Positions 585-59,063 of a stretch of 64,000 nt of DNA are shown here, one piece after another. The position numbers were made by a program, and so were the translations under genes. A model generated the notes under the pieces. It had not been told where the DNA came from and searched no databases. It saw nothing but the letters and a program-made list of their open reading frames with translations. How positions within the stretch are numbered: the first letter of the stretch is position 1; the number at the start of each line of letters is the position of its first letter. The DNA lies in contig CP040556.1 of NCBI GenBank assembly GCA_013378335.1, forward strand, positions 186,001 through 250,000. Reading direction: 5' to 3'. The stretch comes from Streptococcus sanguinis (GTDB taxonomy: Bacteria > Bacillota > Bacilli > Lactobacillales > Streptococcaceae).

Positions 585-2136
585 CAGACCGTAGACAAAC
601 ATTCCAAATAGTGTTTGTCTTTTTCTGTTTGTCAGGCTAAAATTTCATCTTTTGATTTCATCTTTTGATAGCATAATGGTCATTTGAACAAAATAAAAAG
701 GCTTCCCCACCCTCATTTTTACTAGTTTTTTGAGATTCAAACACGCCAAAGTAAGCCCAACCTTATCTTCCATCTTGGACTTGCCTTTCTCTCTTGTATA
801 ACGGAGGTTGTGGTATTCTTTAGCTGTCCCAAAGAGCCGCTCAATGGTTTCTTTGCGCTTCTTATAGAGCTCCTTCATCCCTCTTTGGTGTCGAATCTCT
901 TCACAACATTCAAGCGCATCTTTCCATACATGTCTTGTGATGACTTTCTGCTGATTCTGGCTCTGGGTACAAACAGATAATAGGGGACAGGCGACACATA
1001 CTGTTGAATCACTCTTATACTCACGGTAGCCTGCTCGGGTCGTCGTGCGATAGGTTAACACTTGGTTCTCTGGACAGAGGTAACAGTCATAATAGGAATC
1101 ATAAACAAAATCATTGGGCCTTAAGTTCCCTTTTACACCCTTGGGGCGGGTATAAGGGAAGACAGGGGTAATCTCTCTGTCTAACAAAAATTTTGCAATA
1201 CTTGGGGTTTTATAACCTGCATCTGCGATGAGATAGGTTGGATGAAAAGGCTCAATCTTGGCAAAAAGGGCAGGGAAAGCCTGACTATCATGAACATTTC
1301 CTGCTTCAACCGTATAAGCCAAGGCCCAACCATGCTTATCACACGCTACTTGGGCAGAATAGGCAAAGACTTCCTTGTGTTCCCCCTTGTGGAACCAACC
1401 ACTCTCAGGATCTGTCCTTGAGATTTTCTTTTCCTTAGCCTCGCTTTCTTTTGCGGGCTTTAAGGGCTTTTTTTCGTGTTTTCTCCTATCTAAATCAATC
1501 TCAACTTCCAATTGCTCACTCATAAATGTAGCTTGTTGGGCAACCATTTCCTTATGATACTTGTGGCTGTTGGCTGCCGCTTTAATATGGGTTCCATCCA
1601 CAAATATCTCAGAAGGATCAATCAAACCAGCACATAAAGCTTGATGGAGTACGTGTGAAAATATCTCAGTAATCAGTGCTTTATCTTGAAAACGACGGCT
1701 GTAATTCTTTCCATATGTGGTAAAATGAGGCACCTTGTCATCCAAGCTTAGTCCAAGAAACCAACGATAAGCTACGTTTACTTCTATGTCTTTAATGGTT
1801 TGGCGCATGGAGCGAATGCCATAAAAACATTGAATCAAAGGAATTTTGACCAACATGACGGGATCTAGACTGGGACGACCCTGATCTGGGCTATAGGTTT
1901 CTTCAACCAAGTCATAGATAAAGTCAAAATCAACCTCCGCTTCCAATTGGCGAAGAAAGTGATCTTCTGGGACCAATTCGTCTATCGTATAGAAGCCATA
2001 TTGGCAGCGATTATAATCAGATTTTTCTTTGTGAAACATAGGGAGCACCTCACAACTGTTCTTACCTCTATTATACGACTTTACAAAAAGAAAAGCCCTT
2101 AGAAACTTCTGTTCTTAGGACTTTGTCTTCAATCTG
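585..2136 (-). mobile_element. IS1182-family insertion sequence, copy 1
   Basis: This complete 1552-bp element is bounded by imperfect 16-bp terminal inverted repeats (CAGACCGTAGACAAAC at the left; CAGATTGAAGACAAAG when read inward from the right; 12 of 16 match). A second copy of exactly the same length lies inverted at 57494-59045 and encodes an identical transposase. The borders were set by comparing the two copies: sequence identity stops at these bases. An internal hairpin (GACAAACA...TGTTTGTC) lies next to the transposase-distal end. Both copies sit between duplicated hairpins, described under the findings. Confidence 0.93.
645..2039 (-). CDS. IS1182-family transposase (copy 1)
   Basis: A 464-residue DDE transposase starting MFHKEKSDYNRCQYGF. 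The start is the ATG at 2039, which has GAGGTG placed as a ribosome binding site; an upstream in-frame GTG would put the start inside that site. Family features are visible: an N-terminal helical region with GRPSLDPVMLVK, the DDE-type core (EIFVDGTHIKAAAN, later YLIADAGYKTP), an insert with cysteines (CYLCPENQ, CVACPLLSVC), and a C-terminal ERLFGTAKEYHNLRY segment. The reading frame is intact and identical in sequence to the other copy, so the element may still be active or has moved very recently. Confidence 0.95.
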   Translation of the reverse strand: MFHKEKSDYNRCQYGFYTIDELVPEDHFLRQLEAEVDFDFIYDLVEETYSPDQGRPSLDPVMLVKIPLIQCFYGIRSMRQTIKDIEVNVAYRWFLGLSLDDKVPHFTTYGKNYSRRFQDKALITEIFSHVLHQALCAGLIDPSEIFVDGTHIKAAANSHKYHKEMVAQQATFMSEQLEVEIDLDRRKHEKKPLKPAKESEAKEKKISRTDPESGWFHKGEHKEVFAYSAQVACDKHGWALAYTVEAGNVHDSQAFPALFAKIEPFHPTYLIADAGYKTPSIAKFLLDREITPVFPYTRPKGVKGNLRPNDFVYDSYYDCYLCPENQVLTYRTTTRAGYREYKSDSTVCVACPLLSVCTQSQNQQKVITRHVWKDALECCEEIRHQRGMKELYKKRKETIERLFGTAKEYHNLRYTREKGKSKMEDKVGLTLACLNLKKLVKMRVGKPFYFVQMTIMLSKDEIKR

Positions 2137-9374: not shown

Positions 9375-9407
9375 CTTAAGATTCATTTAAGATATATATT
9401 TTATACT
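9375..9407 (+). promoter_or_regulatory. CiaR-type csRNA promoter
   Basis: CTTAAG-ATTCA-TTTAAG matches the CiaR direct repeat TTTAAG-N5-TTTAAG with one mismatch. It is followed after exactly 10 bp by TATACT (9402-9407). The second csRNA locus at 30616-30648 has the same geometry. Confidence 0.85.
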
Positions 9408-9413
9408 AATGAC

Positions 9414-9500
9414 ATAAACAAAGACCTCCTAACTTTGTTTAAAAATCCTAAACTTTTTTCATAATAATCTCCTGAAAGTCACCCCAGTGGTGGCTTTTAC
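9414..9500 (+). ncRNA. CiaR-controlled small RNA (csRNA), copy 1
   Basis: A transcript of about 87-93 nt is predicted from the promoter at 9375-9407 to a terminator at 9475-9497 (AAAGTCACC / GGTGGCTTT, then U-rich). The body carries ACAAAGACCTCCTAACTTTG, a small stem presenting an anti-Shine-Dalgarno ACCTCCTAA, followed by a single-stranded AATCCTAAACTTTTTT-type segment. The same body occurs almost unchanged at 30655-30748. This architecture matches the csRNAs of streptococci, which are activated by the CiaRH two-component system and pair with ribosome sites of target mRNAs. Targets were not determined here. The exact 5' end is estimated from the -10 position. Confidence 0.85.
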
Positions 9501-10150: not shown

Positions 10151-10166
10151 TTCTATGCCTCTTAAC

Positions 10167-10484
10167 GAATCAAGCCTGAAAGGAGCAGATGAATCTTAGA
10201 GCAATGGATGCAGTTTTTCCCATAAGGGAAAAATCTGTAAACCGGATAGAGTCTTTTAGTGAATTAAGTCCAAAGGACACAAAAGAACTTAGGTACATTG
10301 ACGCAGTTTGAGCGAAGCGAGAACTACGTTCCGATGTTGAATGAATCAAGCCTGAAAGGCACAGATGAATTTTAGAGCAATGGATGCAGTTTTTCCCATA
10401 AGGGAAAAATCTGTAAACCGTATAGAGTCTTTTAGTGAATCAAGTCCGAAGGAGGCAGATGAGTTTAGAAGTATTGATGCAGTT
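10167..10484. repeat. 176-bp tandem duplication of a two-part repeat
   Basis: This otherwise gene-free stretch holds two tandem units with period 176 bp (10167-10342 and 10343-10484, the second truncated). Each unit has two half-units (94 and 82 bp) that both start GAATCAAGYCYGAAAGG-like and pass through GGATGCAGTTT-like sequence, so there are four diverged copies of a basic module. The first half of each unit contains the perfect hairpin TTTTTCCC-ATAA-GGGAAAAA. A 63-codon frame at 10365-10556 reads through the second unit but has no convincing start and is not preserved in the first unit. I do not recognise the element. Confidence 0.75.
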
Positions 10485-30648: not shown

Positions 30649-30654
30649 AAGAAC

Positions 30655-30748
30655 ATAAACAAAGACCTCCTAACTTTGTTTAGAAATCCTAAAACTTTTC
30701 TTTTTCATAATAATCTCCCTATAAGAACCGCCCAATTGGCGGTTTTTT
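30655..30748 (+). ncRNA. CiaR-controlled small RNA (csRNA), copy 2
   Basis: A predicted RNA of about 94 nt. Its body (ACATAAACAAAGACCTCCTA and the following AACTTTGTTTAGAAATCCTA) is nearly identical to the RNA at 9414-9500. It ends with its own terminator AACCGCC-CAATT-GGCGGTT plus T7 (30726-30748). Terminators of the two copies differ in sequence while the regulatory middle part is conserved, which is the expected pattern for csRNA paralogues. A short reading frame overlapping it on the plus strand is not a gene. Confidence 0.87.
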
Positions 30749-30854
30749 TGCTGGAAAGGCTGAGAAATCTAGATTTTCATCAATTTGATGTCTTTTATGT
30801 TATAATGAGTCACAAGTAGGCCGAGCGAATCGGTCGGTAGATGGAGGAGCAGAG

Positions 30855-42241: not shown

Positions 42242-42874
42242 ATGAAAGAATTTAAGAATAAGGACTATGCAATAGAAATTCGTCAGAAAATTCCAGGCTA
42301 TGATGTGATGCTAGATGTGATTTTCCGAGGAGTATTGCTTAGGTTAGCACCCAGTTTAAAAGTCGACAAGGTGTTAGCTTTGGCAAGCCAGACGGATGAG
42401 TTGAATGGTTTGGCATCCTTATTTCCTAAGGCAGGGTTGACGGTTGTGGAGCCAAGTGAGGCGATGCTACAAGAGCTTAAAAGACAGGTTCATCTTCCTC
42501 AAGCGGAGTATCTTAATAGTCAATTTGAAGAAGCAATACTGCCCTCTGCTTATCAGATTTGTTCTTGCTTGCTAGTGTTGCAGTTTGTTGAAAATCCCAG
42601 TTTTTTTCTTCGAAAAATTTATGACTCTTTAAGTGAAGGTGGCCTTCTAATTCTTAGCTTTTTTTCCAACCAGCAACTGGGCTATTGGAAAACACTTGCT
42701 TCTGAATTGGGAGCCAATCAGCAACAAATTCAGCGTACTTATAAGAATCAAGCTAGTTTGATGAATTCCCTCTCGCCTCAAGAAGTTGCAAACCTACTAG
42801 AAGAGGCTGGCTTTACTAATATAGAGCAAGTGTGTCAGGTCTTATCTACTTTTGTTTGGATTATTAGAAAATAA
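42242..42874 (+). CDS. Class I SAM methyltransferase-like protein
   Basis: A 210-residue protein with the Rossmann-type methyltransferase order (VLALASQTDELNGLASLFPK; LTVVEPSEAMLQELK; IYDSLSEGGLLILSFFS). The glycine-rich motif I is degenerate (LASQTDE instead of GxGxG), so SAM binding is uncertain. It lies between the phosphatase and the radA region. Target unknown. Confidence 0.65.
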   Translation: MKEFKNKDYAIEIRQKIPGYDVMLDVIFRGVLLRLAPSLKVDKVLALASQTDELNGLASLFPKAGLTVVEPSEAMLQELKRQVHLPQAEYLNSQFEEAILPSAYQICSCLLVLQFVENPSFFLRKIYDSLSEGGLLILSFFSNQQLGYWKTLASELGANQQQIQRTYKNQASLMNSLSPQEVANLLEEAGFTNIEQVCQVLSTFVWIIRK

Positions 42875-42885
42875 GGAGAATCACC

Positions 42886-43005
42886 ATCGCTAAGAAAAAA
42901 ACGACCTTTGTCTGTCAAAATTGTGAATATCATTCGCCCAAGTATCTAGGCCGCTGTCCTAACTGCGGATCTTGGTCTTCTTTTATTGAGGAAGTAGAGG
43001 AATAA
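42886..43005 (+). pseudogene. Duplicated 5' end of radA (zinc-finger fragment)
   Basis: A 39-codon frame from ATC at 42886 to TAA at 43003. Residues 2-38 are those of RadA, including the whole C4 zinc finger ([20 protein letters not shown]). It has the same AAGGAG at 7 bp as the full gene. The stop is created at the duplication junction. It may be translated into a small zinc peptide, and its stop lies one base before the ATG of the next gene. Confidence 0.75.
42889..43000. repeat. 112-bp direct repeat (radA 5' end), first copy
   Basis: Identical base for base to 43474-43585. It starts GCTAAGAAAAAAACGACCTT and ends GAGGAAGTAGAGG. Confidence 0.95.
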
Positions 43006-43006
43006 A

Positions 43007-43474
43007 ATGGCAGACTATTTATTAGTTGTAGACATGCAGTCAGATTATGTTGCTGTAGGAAAAGCATATCATGAAGAACTGACTGCAGCTGTAAATGACA
43101 AAATTGCTACCTATCCCAGCGACCGAGTTATCTATATTCTCAATCGTTTTTTCTGGGAGAGAAAAGATAGAAAGAAGAAATTTGCGACCGGCTTGCTGGT
43201 TGTATCTTCTCGTATCTTTGAGAAGCGTCGAGCTTCTTGCTTTACTAATCCAGATTTAAAAGATTTTTTAGAGGGAAATGGTGCTAAAAGCATAGAGTTT
43301 ATAGGGGTAGATGGCAATGGCTGTGTCAAGGTTTCCGTTTTGGCAGCTGTCAAGGAGAATTATCAGGTTTCTGTCGATTTGTCTGCTGTCGGAGTTGCCA
43401 ACCAGAAGAAATTTCAAAATACATTGTATAAGTGGCATTCTGTCGGAGTAACCGTAGAAGGAGAATTATTATAG
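43007..43474 (+). CDS. Isochorismatase-like cysteine hydrolase
   Basis: A 155-residue protein of the isochorismatase-like hydrolase fold: N-terminal [11 protein letters not shown] with the catalytic Asp, and a nucleophile Cys in [17 protein letters not shown]. The ribosome site AGAGG is supplied by the end of the duplicated radA fragment, 6 bp before the ATG. It is wedged between exact copies of the radA start, and its stop overlaps the first codons of radA. The insertion looks recent. Substrate unknown. Confidence 0.8.
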
Positions 43475-44832
43475 CTAAGAAAAAAACGACCTTTGTCTGT
43501 CAAAATTGTGAATATCATTCGCCCAAGTATCTAGGCCGCTGTCCTAACTGCGGATCTTGGTCTTCTTTTATTGAGGAAGTAGAGGCTGCAGAAGTCAAGC
43601 ATGCCCGTGTTTCCTTGACGGGCGAAAAGACCCGGCCCATGAAGCTGGCTGAGGTCACTTCGATTGATGTCAACCGTATCAAGACAGAAATGGACGAGTT
43701 CAATCGTGTGCTGGGGGGCGGTATAGTGCCTGGCAGTCTGGTCCTGATTGGTGGAGATCCCGGTATCGGGAAGTCCACCCTGCTTCTGCAGGTATCCACC
43801 CAGCTTTCTCATCAGGGCACAGTCCTTTATGTCAGCGGGGAGGAATCAGCTGAGCAGATTAAGCTGCGGGCGGAACGCCTCGGTGATATTGACAGTGAAT
43901 TTTATCTCTACGCCGAGACCAATATGCAAAATATCCGCACGGAGATTGAGAAAATCAAGCCAGATTTTCTGATTATCGACTCCATTCAGACGGTCATGTC
44001 GCCTGAAATTTCCAGTGTTCAAGGCTCTGTCTCTCAGGTCCGAGAGGTGACAGCTGAGCTTATGCAGCTAGCTAAGACCAATAATATCGCGACCTTTATC
44101 GTTGGTCACATGACCAAGGAAGGAACCTTAGCTGGCCCCCGAACGCTAGAGCACATGGTGGACACAGTGCTTTATTTTGAGGGCGAACGTCAGCACACTT
44201 TCCGTATCTTGAGAGCAGTCAAGAACCGCTTTGGTTCAACCAATGAGATTGGAATTTTTGAAATGCAATCTGGCGGGCTAGTTGAGGTTATCAACCCCAG
44301 CCAAGTCTTTCTGGAAGAACGGCTGGACGGCGCGACAGGCTCTTCCATCGTTGTAACCATGGAAGGGACGCGGCCGATTTTAGCAGAGGTACAGGCTTTG
44401 GTGACACCGACAATGTTCGGCAATGCCAAGCGAACCACGACTGGACTGGACTTTAACCGAGCCAGTCTCATCATGGCAGTTCTGGAAAAGAGGGCAGGGC
44501 TTCTCCTGCAAAATCAAGATGCCTACCTCAAGTCTGCTGGCGGCGTCAAGCTAGATGAGCCAGCGATTGATTTGGCAGTAGCGGTAGCTATTGCTTCCAA
44601 CTACAAGGATCTGCCTACAAATCCTCAAGAGTGCTTTATCGGTGAAATTGGCCTGACTGGTGAAATCCGTCGGGTTAATCGCATCGAGCAGCGCATCAAC
44701 GAAGCAGCAAAGCTGGGCTTCACCAAAGTCTACGCCCCTAAAAACTCTCTGAACGGTCTCAAAGTTCCAGACAATATCCAAGTCATCGGTGTGACGACGA
44801 TTGGGGAAGTCTTAAAGAAAGTATTTTCCTAA
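43471..44832 (+). CDS. radA: DNA repair and recombination protein RadA
   Basis: A 453-residue RecA-like helicase that extends D-loops in recombination and natural transformation. It has an N-terminal C4 zinc finger (CQNC...CPNC), Walker A ([15 protein letters not shown]), the RadA-specific KNRFG ([13 protein letters not shown]), and a C-terminal Lon-like domain. No ATG, GTG or TTG stands at a workable distance from the AAGGAG site (43458-43463). The codon at the right spacing (7 bp) is ATA (43471), preceded by ATT (43468), then [12 protein letters not shown]. The next in-frame ATG would remove the zinc finger. The only upstream candidate (GTG 43432) lacks a ribosome site and lies inside the previous gene. 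Confidence 0.93.
43474..43585. repeat. 112-bp direct repeat (radA 5' end), second copy
   Basis: The copy within intact radA; see 42889-43000. Confidence 0.95.
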
Positions 44833-56842: not shown

Positions 56843-57471
56843 ATGAAAAAATGGATTATCATCTTGATTGGAGGACTAGTAGCCTTACTCGTGCTAGTAA
56901 CCTGTAACCAAAAGAAAGAGCAGACGAATCCTGCTTCCAACAATTCTAAAGCAAGTTCGACTAGTTCTGCATCTTCTAAAAAGTCTGAAAGAGGGACCAA
57001 TTCGAGCGAACTTGATAGTCAAGCGGATAATCAGCAAACTTCTGATACAGGCTCTCAGCAGAATTCGGAAACTGAAGCTGAAAAGTCTGCCAAGGAAACT
57101 AGCAAAGGAGAGAAAGAAACGGCATCAACTTCTAGTTTGGATATGAAGGCTATTACTTCTGGGGATTTTTCCAGCATGATTGGTACTTGGCAGGATACCA
57201 AAGGGAACAGTTATACATTCGATGCGTCAGGTATTGAGTCAGATGTTGCCAAGCTTGAGACAGGAGATTACTCTGGGCCAGATGAAAATGGGATTTACCG
57301 AGCAGGGATTCGTTGGAAAACCAAACCGGTGCTGCCTTTCTTATAATCCCAGCAGGAAAGAGTCTGCCAGCTGGGGAGACTGTCAATGGGACGGATCCGA
57401 CTGATACCAGTCAAGATCGCTTTATCATTACTCAGAGCGTTTCCGAACATCCCGATGTTTTTACCGCATAA
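56843..57471 (+). pseudogene. Lipoprotein-like surface protein gene, frameshifted
   Basis: The N-terminus MKKWIIILIGGLVALLVLVT with C22 resembles a lipoprotein or signal-anchor sequence. A long Ser/Thr/Glu/Lys-rich linker (about residues 30-105) leads to a small domain (FSSMIGTWQDTKGNSYTFDA). At about 57317-57327 the frame breaks and stops at 57346. In another frame the same domain continues (TGAAFLIIPAGKSLPAGETV) to TAA at 57471. One missing base explains it. The domain resembles DUF6287-type modules of streptococcal lipoproteins. Its terminator is where IS copy 2 inserted. Confidence 0.75.
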
Positions 57472-57475
57472 AATA

Positions 57476-57493
57476 GGAGTCTTGACAGACTCT
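57476..57493. repeat. Duplicated terminator hairpin, left of IS copy 2
   Basis: GGAGTCTTGACAGACTCT, an 18-bp target duplication that contains GAGTCT-TGAC-AGACTC. It is identical to 59046-59063. Confidence 0.9.
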
Positions 57494-59045
57494 CAGATTG
57501 AAGACAAAGTCCTAAGAACAGAAGTTTCTAAGGGCTTTTCTTTTTGTAAAGTCGTATAATAGAGGTAAGAACAGTTGTGAGGTGCTCCCTATGTTTCACA
57601 AAGAAAAATCTGATTATAATCGCTGCCAATATGGCTTCTATACGATAGACGAATTGGTCCCAGAAGATCACTTTCTTCGCCAATTGGAAGCGGAGGTTGA
57701 TTTTGACTTTATCTATGACTTGGTTGAAGAAACCTATAGCCCAGATCAGGGTCGTCCCAGTCTAGATCCCGTCATGTTGGTCAAAATTCCTTTGATTCAA
57801 TGTTTTTATGGCATTCGCTCCATGCGCCAAACCATTAAAGACATAGAAGTAAACGTAGCTTATCGTTGGTTTCTTGGACTAAGCTTGGATGACAAGGTGC
57901 CTCATTTTACCACATATGGAAAGAATTACAGCCGTCGTTTTCAAGATAAAGCACTGATTACTGAGATATTTTCACACGTACTCCATCAAGCTTTATGTGC
58001 TGGTTTGATTGATCCTTCTGAGATATTTGTGGATGGAACCCATATTAAAGCGGCAGCCAACAGCCACAAGTATCATAAGGAAATGGTTGCCCAACAAGCT
58101 ACATTTATGAGTGAGCAATTGGAAGTTGAGATTGATTTAGATAGGAGAAAACACGAAAAAAAGCCCTTAAAGCCCGCAAAAGAAAGCGAGGCTAAGGAAA
58201 AGAAAATCTCAAGGACAGATCCTGAGAGTGGTTGGTTCCACAAGGGGGAACACAAGGAAGTCTTTGCCTATTCTGCCCAAGTAGCGTGTGATAAGCATGG
58301 TTGGGCCTTGGCTTATACGGTTGAAGCAGGAAATGTTCATGATAGTCAGGCTTTCCCTGCCCTTTTTGCCAAGATTGAGCCTTTTCATCCAACCTATCTC
58401 ATCGCAGATGCAGGTTATAAAACCCCAAGTATTGCAAAATTTTTGTTAGACAGAGAGATTACCCCTGTCTTCCCTTATACCCGCCCCAAGGGTGTAAAAG
58501 GGAACTTAAGGCCCAATGATTTTGTTTATGATTCCTATTATGACTGTTACCTCTGTCCAGAGAACCAAGTGTTAACCTATCGCACGACGACCCGAGCAGG
58601 CTACCGTGAGTATAAGAGTGATTCAACAGTATGTGTCGCCTGTCCCCTATTATCTGTTTGTACCCAGAGCCAGAATCAGCAGAAAGTCATCACAAGACAT
58701 GTATGGAAAGATGCGCTTGAATGTTGTGAAGAGATTCGACACCAAAGAGGGATGAAGGAGCTCTATAAGAAGCGCAAAGAAACCATTGAGCGGCTCTTTG
58801 GGACAGCTAAAGAATACCACAACCTCCGTTATACAAGAGAGAAAGGCAAGTCCAAGATGGAAGATAAGGTTGGGCTTACTTTGGCGTGTTTGAATCTCAA
58901 AAAACTAGTAAAAATGAGGGTGGGGAAGCCTTTTTATTTTGTTCAAATGACCATTATGCTATCAAAAGATGAAATCAAAAGATGAAATTTTAGCCTGACA
59001 AACAGAAAAAGACAAACACTATTTGGAATGTTTGTCTACGGTCTG
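57494..59045 (+). mobile_element. IS1182-family insertion sequence, copy 2
   Basis: A 1552-bp element of the same length and same ends as copy 1, in opposite orientation. It sits exactly between two 18-bp copies of a terminator hairpin, so the terminator of the upstream lipoprotein gene now appears on both sides. The right copy keeps its T7 run. Confidence 0.95.
57591..58985 (+). CDS. IS1182-family transposase (copy 2)
   Basis: A 464-residue protein identical to the copy at 645-2039. The start is the ATG at 57591, with GAGGTG 6 bp upstream. The element's own TATAAT is at 57555-57560. Motifs are as described for copy 1. The frame is intact. Confidence 0.95.
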   Translation: MFHKEKSDYNRCQYGFYTIDELVPEDHFLRQLEAEVDFDFIYDLVEETYSPDQGRPSLDPVMLVKIPLIQCFYGIRSMRQTIKDIEVNVAYRWFLGLSLDDKVPHFTTYGKNYSRRFQDKALITEIFSHVLHQALCAGLIDPSEIFVDGTHIKAAANSHKYHKEMVAQQATFMSEQLEVEIDLDRRKHEKKPLKPAKESEAKEKKISRTDPESGWFHKGEHKEVFAYSAQVACDKHGWALAYTVEAGNVHDSQAFPALFAKIEPFHPTYLIADAGYKTPSIAKFLLDREITPVFPYTRPKGVKGNLRPNDFVYDSYYDCYLCPENQVLTYRTTTRAGYREYKSDSTVCVACPLLSVCTQSQNQQKVITRHVWKDALECCEEIRHQRGMKELYKKRKETIERLFGTAKEYHNLRYTREKGKSKMEDKVGLTLACLNLKKLVKMRVGKPFYFVQMTIMLSKDEIKR

Positions 59046-59063
59046 GGAGTCTTGACAGACTCT
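59046..59063. repeat. Duplicated terminator hairpin, right of IS copy 2
   Basis: Identical to 57476-57493 and followed by TTTTTT, so this is the functional-looking terminator copy. Confidence 0.9.

Follow-up and report, generated by a model that had tools for sequence, protein, structure and literature searches.

On ordinary DNA the two strand-transfer sites of a DDE transposase lie a fixed distance apart, and for this reason the target duplication is normally short and constant in length. Group IIC introns, which are RNA retroelements, insert beside intrinsic terminator hairpins and do not duplicate the hairpin. In the IS1182 family, two staphylococcal elements have been described, in the sections of the papers drawn on here, as using hairpins in another way. 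IS1272, 1945 bp long with a 548-aa transposase, replaces inverted repeats without target duplication, and in 3 of 13 older copies the target was not an inverted repeat (PMC5678879). TnSha1 deletes the hairpin that it enters; five of its targets are confirmed terminators and one lies in a coding region (PMC4923244). The sections of both papers cite a 2015 review for the targeting of palindromes by some IS1182 members, and Fig. 13 of PMC5678879 includes a hypothetical pathway b: were the element joined to the 5' feet of a cruciform, a whole stem-loop would be duplicated. IS1182 is also named, in the part of PMC9208149 used here, among the families over-represented between convergent genes.

The DNA analysed here, the window, is a 64-kb stretch covering positions 186001-250000 of a 2.35-Mb chromosome. 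The genome holds ten full-length copies of one element. Coordinates below are those of the window for the copy under study and for copy 1.

57494-59045, plus strand: IS1182-family insertion sequence, the copy under study, 1552 bp, ends CAGATTGAAGACAAAG ... GTTTGTCTACGGTCTG
57591-58985, plus strand: transposase open reading frame, IS1182-family DDE transposase, 464 aa counted from the ATG
57476-57493, no strand: target hairpin on the left, 18 nt, without its former T run; single at the empty site in five relatives
59046-59063, no strand: right copy of the target hairpin, 18 nt, followed by a T run on to 59069
57506-57545, plus strand: terminator-like hairpin with T run facing inward, left element end, fold z -2.2
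59000-59037, minus strand: terminator-like hairpin with T run facing inward, right element end, fold z -4.96
585-2136, minus strand: copy 1, the element at 100% identity, between divergent genes
559-584, no strand: left target palindrome of copy 1, 26 nt, one mismatch against the right; single in five relatives
2137-2162, no strand: right target palindrome of copy 1, 26 nt

The transposase is the sole gene of the element. It scores 431.6 bits against the IS1182 model NF033551 (cut-off 270), matches DDE_Tnp_1 and DDE_Tnp_1_6 above the Pfam cut-off, and also matches DUF772. Terminal inverted repeats are present, CAGATTGAAGACAAAG and CAGACCGTAGACAAAC being identical by eye at 12 of 16 positions. 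Among named genomes, Streptococcus sanguinis and S. cristatus carry the closest full-length relatives, with 92% protein identity, and a Streptococcus of this kind is very probably the host.

As the earlier note had claimed, the element lies between perfect 18-bp repeats: GGAGTCTTGACAGACTCT at 57476-57493 is identical to the sequence at 59046-59063. The right repeat, again as claimed, keeps the T run, which reaches 59069; the left has none. The DNA stem of the target is GAGTCT-TGAC-AGACTC, with one non-Watson-Crick position at either edge of the repeat. Seven loci of relatives were compared; five (L130-L133, L135) have a single hairpin and no element, and in the other two (L134, L136) the left side has no alignment. 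The repeat is thus a true target-site duplication. The note's further statement, that a whole terminator had been duplicated here and that two unrelated hairpins had both been duplicated whole, requires trimming: the hairpin is doubled here (18 nt) and at copy 1 (26 nt, with one mismatch), but the T run stays single, and at 4 of the 10 copies in the genome some outer stem pairs fall outside the duplication. Nor does the assignment of this hairpin to a lipoprotein gene hold in full, for it is downstream of the lipoprotein reading frame but about 130 bp beyond its stop. The frame covers 56843-57346 (DUF6287); in relatives a frame seems to reach the hairpin, and in this genome the gene looks broken close to its end.

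All ten full-length copies are flanked by direct repeats of 18-26 nt, nine of them perfect and one with a single mismatch, and in every case the centre of the repeat coincides exactly with the centre of a palindrome. At nine, 6 bp or more of stem pair without interruption; at the exception, L003, the stem is 4 bp, with a mismatch further out. In a background sample of 400 kb, all from this genome, a stem of at least 6 bp occurs at about one centre per 1000, and the centring on hairpins is beyond chance. Empty sites for four other copies tell the same story as the first: the 16 relative loci compared all have a single hairpin and lack the element; three of these copies were compared with five relatives each (5/5), while the locus of the fifth copy is found in just one of the five. 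The hairpin was not removed, as it is by IS1272, at these sites, where the hairpin is present once in relatives and twice in this genome.

The window also holds other repeats. A 74-nt repeat at 9385 and 30626 is mostly explained by two genes for Cia-dependent small RNAs (Rfam csRNA; 9413-9500 and 30654-30749) that overlap it. At 10164-10484 and 42873-43585 there are two more pairs of direct repeats, one of 145 nt with 88% identity and one of 128 nt with 97%.

To extend the comparison, we assembled 170 related loci: the 10 of this genome, 79 from named genomes and 81 from a search of genomes of the genus, many of which were the same records as the 79 and were dropped as duplicates. The genus search scored no more than six matches in any genome, so that copy numbers outside this genome are lower bounds; 80 nearly full-length places were taken from it. 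No recognisable pair of ends was found at 39 loci, many of them cut by contig ends; both ends were placed in 131, and removal of 22 with duplicate flanks left 109 unique loci. A duplication of at least 8 nt under a strict rule was present at 82 (8 of them in genomes named other than Streptococcus) and absent from 27, two of which (L067, L205) do show one if the end may shift by one base.

At 79 of the 82 sites, duplication and palindrome have exactly the same centre. The arms are at least 80% paired at 77 sites, against 14 of 16,400 length-matched random windows drawn from the flanks. Among the 79 centred sites, 76 have arms of 7-13 bp and 76 have loops of 3-6 nt. The first base of the duplication is A in 75 of 82 and the last is T in 81. 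Duplication length is 16-38 nt at 81 sites, with a median of 23 and a standard deviation of 3.8; the outlier, an 11-nt duplication at L035, looks like a partly lost copy. The conventional mark of a DDE transposase, a short duplication of fixed length, was therefore not seen among these 82 sites. The earlier note had regarded such duplications, or targets that are not palindromic, as evidence against its proposal. Checked on part of the relatives, lengths vary as just described, and a single one of the 109 unique loci, L184, lacks a palindrome at both ends.

The variable length and its near-constant centring, together with a 47-nt duplication in an Enterococcus plasmid described below, imply that the target is held in a shape other than that of ordinary DNA. 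They also refute random insertion followed by selection as the sole cause. Under that explanation, insertions would fall anywhere and only those at harmless intergenic sites, where hairpins lie, would be retained. Selection may well add to the pattern, since a real coding frame is hit at 1 of 82 sites by our own count, as compared with 12 of 42 background hairpins (stem of at least 9), but it can neither centre 79 of 82 duplications nor give them lengths of 16 to 38 nt, and we regard this explanation as practically dismissed. The coding count deserves a remark: our script flagged three sites, of which L007 (the copy under study, with a spurious overlapping frame) and L008 (copy 1, where the gene starts at 532, outside the site) were reclassified.

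Whether duplication length tracks hairpin length, a check that the earlier note had suggested, has a qualified answer. The two are correlated (Spearman 0.41, p 0.0001, 81 sites), but the duplication is not simply the whole palindrome, at least one further pair lying just outside it at 60 of 82 sites. The correlation is only moderate because duplications often end some pairs inside the palindrome. At some sites, including the copy under study, a non-pairing position lies inside the edge of the duplication, and the foot of the hairpin often falls within an A:T run immediately beyond the outermost G:C pair. In S. ictaluri, two elements at different places (L050, L053) have an identical 24-nt palindromic duplication around them, which may mean that the terminator itself is repeated or that the hairpin travelled along with the element.

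The pairing in the arms bears on the form of DNA that is recognised. Over the 79 centred sites, 720 arm pairs are Watson-Crick, 26 are G:T or A:C and 14 are other, and this predominance of Watson-Crick pairs fits what a two-strand cruciform needs. The target might instead be a hairpin on single-stranded DNA, such as the lagging strand in replication. Other hairpin-directed transposons use single strands, and the specificity for hairpins as such would be accounted for equally; yet the transposase is a DDE enzyme, the duplication of a whole hairpin is most simply obtained by joining on both strands, to either side of it, and few arm positions (26 of 760) hold wobble-type mispairs. We consider a single-stranded target improbable.

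The same association with palindromes appears when each element end is tested singly. A palindrome with its foot at the element end was found at 191 of 209 ends, as compared with 0.9% of 6240 control positions; the 209 are the ends with enough flank, nine others, at loci without a duplication, being too close to a contig end. Even at loci without a duplication, 36 of 45 ends adjoin a palindrome by a stricter score. Different palindromes stand on the two sides in at least nine loci (L034, L042, L044, L060, L095, L096, L153, L171, L210), which is the arrangement that recombination between copies should leave behind. The palindrome score was missed by 18 ends. Eight of these belong to weaker palindromes at the copy under study and at L009, L190 and L198; another eight come one each from loci at which the opposite end passes or nearly does; the last two belong to L184, which alone is a clear exception. 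At chromosome positions 1345907-1345954 (L013), an isolated right end of the element has a palindrome adjoining its outer side.

These results raise the question of whether the element seeks a palindrome or a terminator. Most sites are intrinsic terminators, that is, a hairpin with a T run at the end of a gene. In the measures of T runs and hairpins, targets with stems below 9 (27 of 82) or below 7 (20 of 82) were set aside. A T run follows 46 of 55 targets with stems of at least 9, against 20 of 42 background hairpins by the same measure (p 0.0003), and 73 of 82 sites by a looser measure. T runs are thus commoner at targets than at background hairpins of equal strength, so that something beyond palindromicity counts. 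Nevertheless, two of the copies in this genome are not at terminators. L009 lies without a T run inside a 220-codon reading frame, which is open in the relative that has it. Copy 1 lies between an Hsp33 gene that starts at 532 on the minus strand and an ADP-ribosylglycohydrolase gene at 2222 on the plus strand; as these neighbours point away, no gene ends there. The target is thus a palindrome first, usually but not always a terminator, and both properties matter.

The proposal of the earlier note, targeted insertion into terminator hairpins, is accordingly strongly supported for the hairpin and its duplication, which is centred at 79 of 82 sites, and fails in its strict form on L009 and copy 1. 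Host genes are spared by nine of the ten copies here but not by L009.

Where genes flank the target, they tend to converge: 47 of 81 targets are in convergent gaps, against 29 of 240 background gaps, and just 2 of 81 are between divergent genes. Negative supercoiling is expected to be highest between divergent genes, and so the scarcity of targets there counts against a cruciform. The convergent bias may be due to selection or to a preference for T tracts. Insertions in coding frames and on the promoter side should cost the host most, and selection may for this reason explain part of it; what remains may come from a preference for palindromes in which an A tract, hairpin and T tract follow one another.

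Both the T runs and the convergent bias are also what one would expect if a working terminator recruited the transposase through paused RNA polymerase, an R-loop or single-stranded DNA, and most sites, at gene ends with T runs, agree with such recruitment. It sits poorly with L009, in a frame and without a T run, with copy 1 between divergent genes, and with duplications that centre on the palindrome. Orientation leans towards the direction of the gene, though not significantly (19 same, 10 opposite, p 0.14), and towards that of one-sided T runs (17 same, 8 opposite). Recruitment by a working terminator seems to us unlikely, if less so than a single-stranded target.

The preferred reading, in which a palindrome is recognised as such, must also account for what an insertion does to the terminator. 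Since the element end takes the place of the T run at the upstream copy of the hairpin, that copy should terminate less well. Each element end, however, brings a hairpin of its own. By a fixed rule, inward-facing terminator-like hairpins were found in 68 of 70 elements at the left end and in 68 of 70 at the right, as compared with 91 of 1400 interior windows; no two of the 70 elements share the first 120 nt in the direction read, and one element in two orientations therefore counts twice. With such a hairpin at each end, transcription from either side would meet one within about 50 nt. The end hairpins presumably act as terminators, and the element may thereby insulate itself. The earlier note had attributed insulation to the two duplicated terminators; that cause is ruled out, because the left duplicate has no T run, although the effect is perhaps achieved by the end hairpins.

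Elsewhere on the chromosome, the element's ends occur without its transposase. Two tiny palindromic elements consisting of end sequence only, one of 57 bp (658279-658335) and the other of 44 bp (660780-660823), are the sole matches in the genome to an end-to-end pattern, and a reversed control pattern gives none. They bound a 2545-bp unit (658279-660823; L012, L014, L307) that encodes a 570-aa protein and no transposase. The protein had no Pfam match, and a 456-aa part of it none in Pfam or PADLOC. In five of five relatives the 2545-bp stretch is absent and the hairpin behind an alpha-amylase-family gene is single; in this genome, related hairpins, now somewhat unlike each other, stand on both sides of the unit. 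On the simplest reading, the unit would be one insertion into the terminator hairpin of that gene, moved by a full copy, although two separate events could also have produced the mini-elements.

The regularity extends beyond the genus. A search of the phylum with the family model covered 149 genomes and gave matches in 28, with 40 places taken from the list; a search of plasmid records added elements from the seven records taken. Palindromic duplications were also found with similar CAGA-ended elements in other Bacillota, among them Enterococcus and Staphylococcus arlettae (L275). The Enterococcus duplications are of 47 nt (L273, on the plasmid) and 19 nt (L276), and at a third Enterococcus locus (L274) a palindrome adjoins one end only, another transposon adjoining the other side. 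That relatives in other bacteria behave alike suggests that the landing site is marked by the shape of the DNA and not by its sequence.

When 56 transposases were placed in a tree, the 33 palindrome-duplicators among them all grouped in a single clade of 37 (SH-aLRT 98), whose four further members are without a call. The tree is a quick, unrooted one drawn with a midpoint root; six long branches, none of them a palindrome-duplicator, were flagged in it, and L031 was too short to be included. A separate clade (SH-aLRT 99) is formed by the elements that have GGGGC ends and transposases of 520-560 aa, and no long palindromic duplication was found in those examined. At 14 of their sites, outward complementarity ranges from 2 to 8 of 8 positions, as the best of several choices of end, which is only suggestive of a hairpin-replacing mode. 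We conclude that the duplication of palindromes is a real, strong and clade-wide regularity.

Taken with the empty sites, the palindrome targeting, exact centring, variable length and inward end hairpins that we observe make the following course of events, in our judgement, quite probable. The transposase of this clade would recognise a short palindrome extruded as a cruciform, as the symmetry of the duplications and their variation in length suggest, and would transfer strands at the 5' feet of the hairpins. Gap repair afterwards would double the hairpin, giving a duplication that is centred on the palindrome, takes its length from the hairpin and has no fixed stagger. Intrinsic terminators, above all those with an A tract, hairpin and T tract between convergent genes, are the commonest targets, probably because they make good palindromes and the host is not harmed by an insertion there. 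Finally, the inward end hairpins would replace the T run lost upstream, restoring the stop, and keep outside transcription out.

A broader proposition, to which we would give about an even chance, is that this clade reads DNA shape, that its terminator-like ends restore the lost stop, and that an end of 44-57 bp suffices to mobilise foreign genes with the transposase supplied in trans. If the target is indeed held in another shape, the formation and use of cruciforms in living cells would become directly testable, each insertion being a lasting record of one. The clade also offers a site-selective insertion system that does little damage, and a simple rule by which the exact ends of such elements can be located in genomes.

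Among described systems, IS1548 of S. agalactiae was considered as a precedent and dropped, hairpin duplication not being reported in the portions of its literature consulted. Our searches of open-access literature brought up no report of whole-hairpin duplication; it may be recorded in ISfinder or in subscription papers. Group IIC introns share with the element the intrinsic terminator hairpin as a place of insertion, but leave it single. To judge from the sections of the two papers drawn on here, IS1272 and TnSha1 resemble our element more closely, in their inverted-repeat or terminator-hairpin targets, in the lack of a sequence consensus and in the occasional hairpin within a coding region. 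IS1272, however, removes the hairpin without duplication whereas the element studied here duplicates it, and the two differ in size (1945 bp and 548 aa, as compared with 1552 bp and 464 aa). In size it is the GGGGC-ended clade that resembles IS1272, which is itself absent from our tree. The sections of PMC5678879 examined contain no example of pathway b, and the elements described here would be examples of it. Palindrome targeting is thus already published for the IS1182 family, and hairpin duplication whose length depends on the target represents a distinct variant of it.
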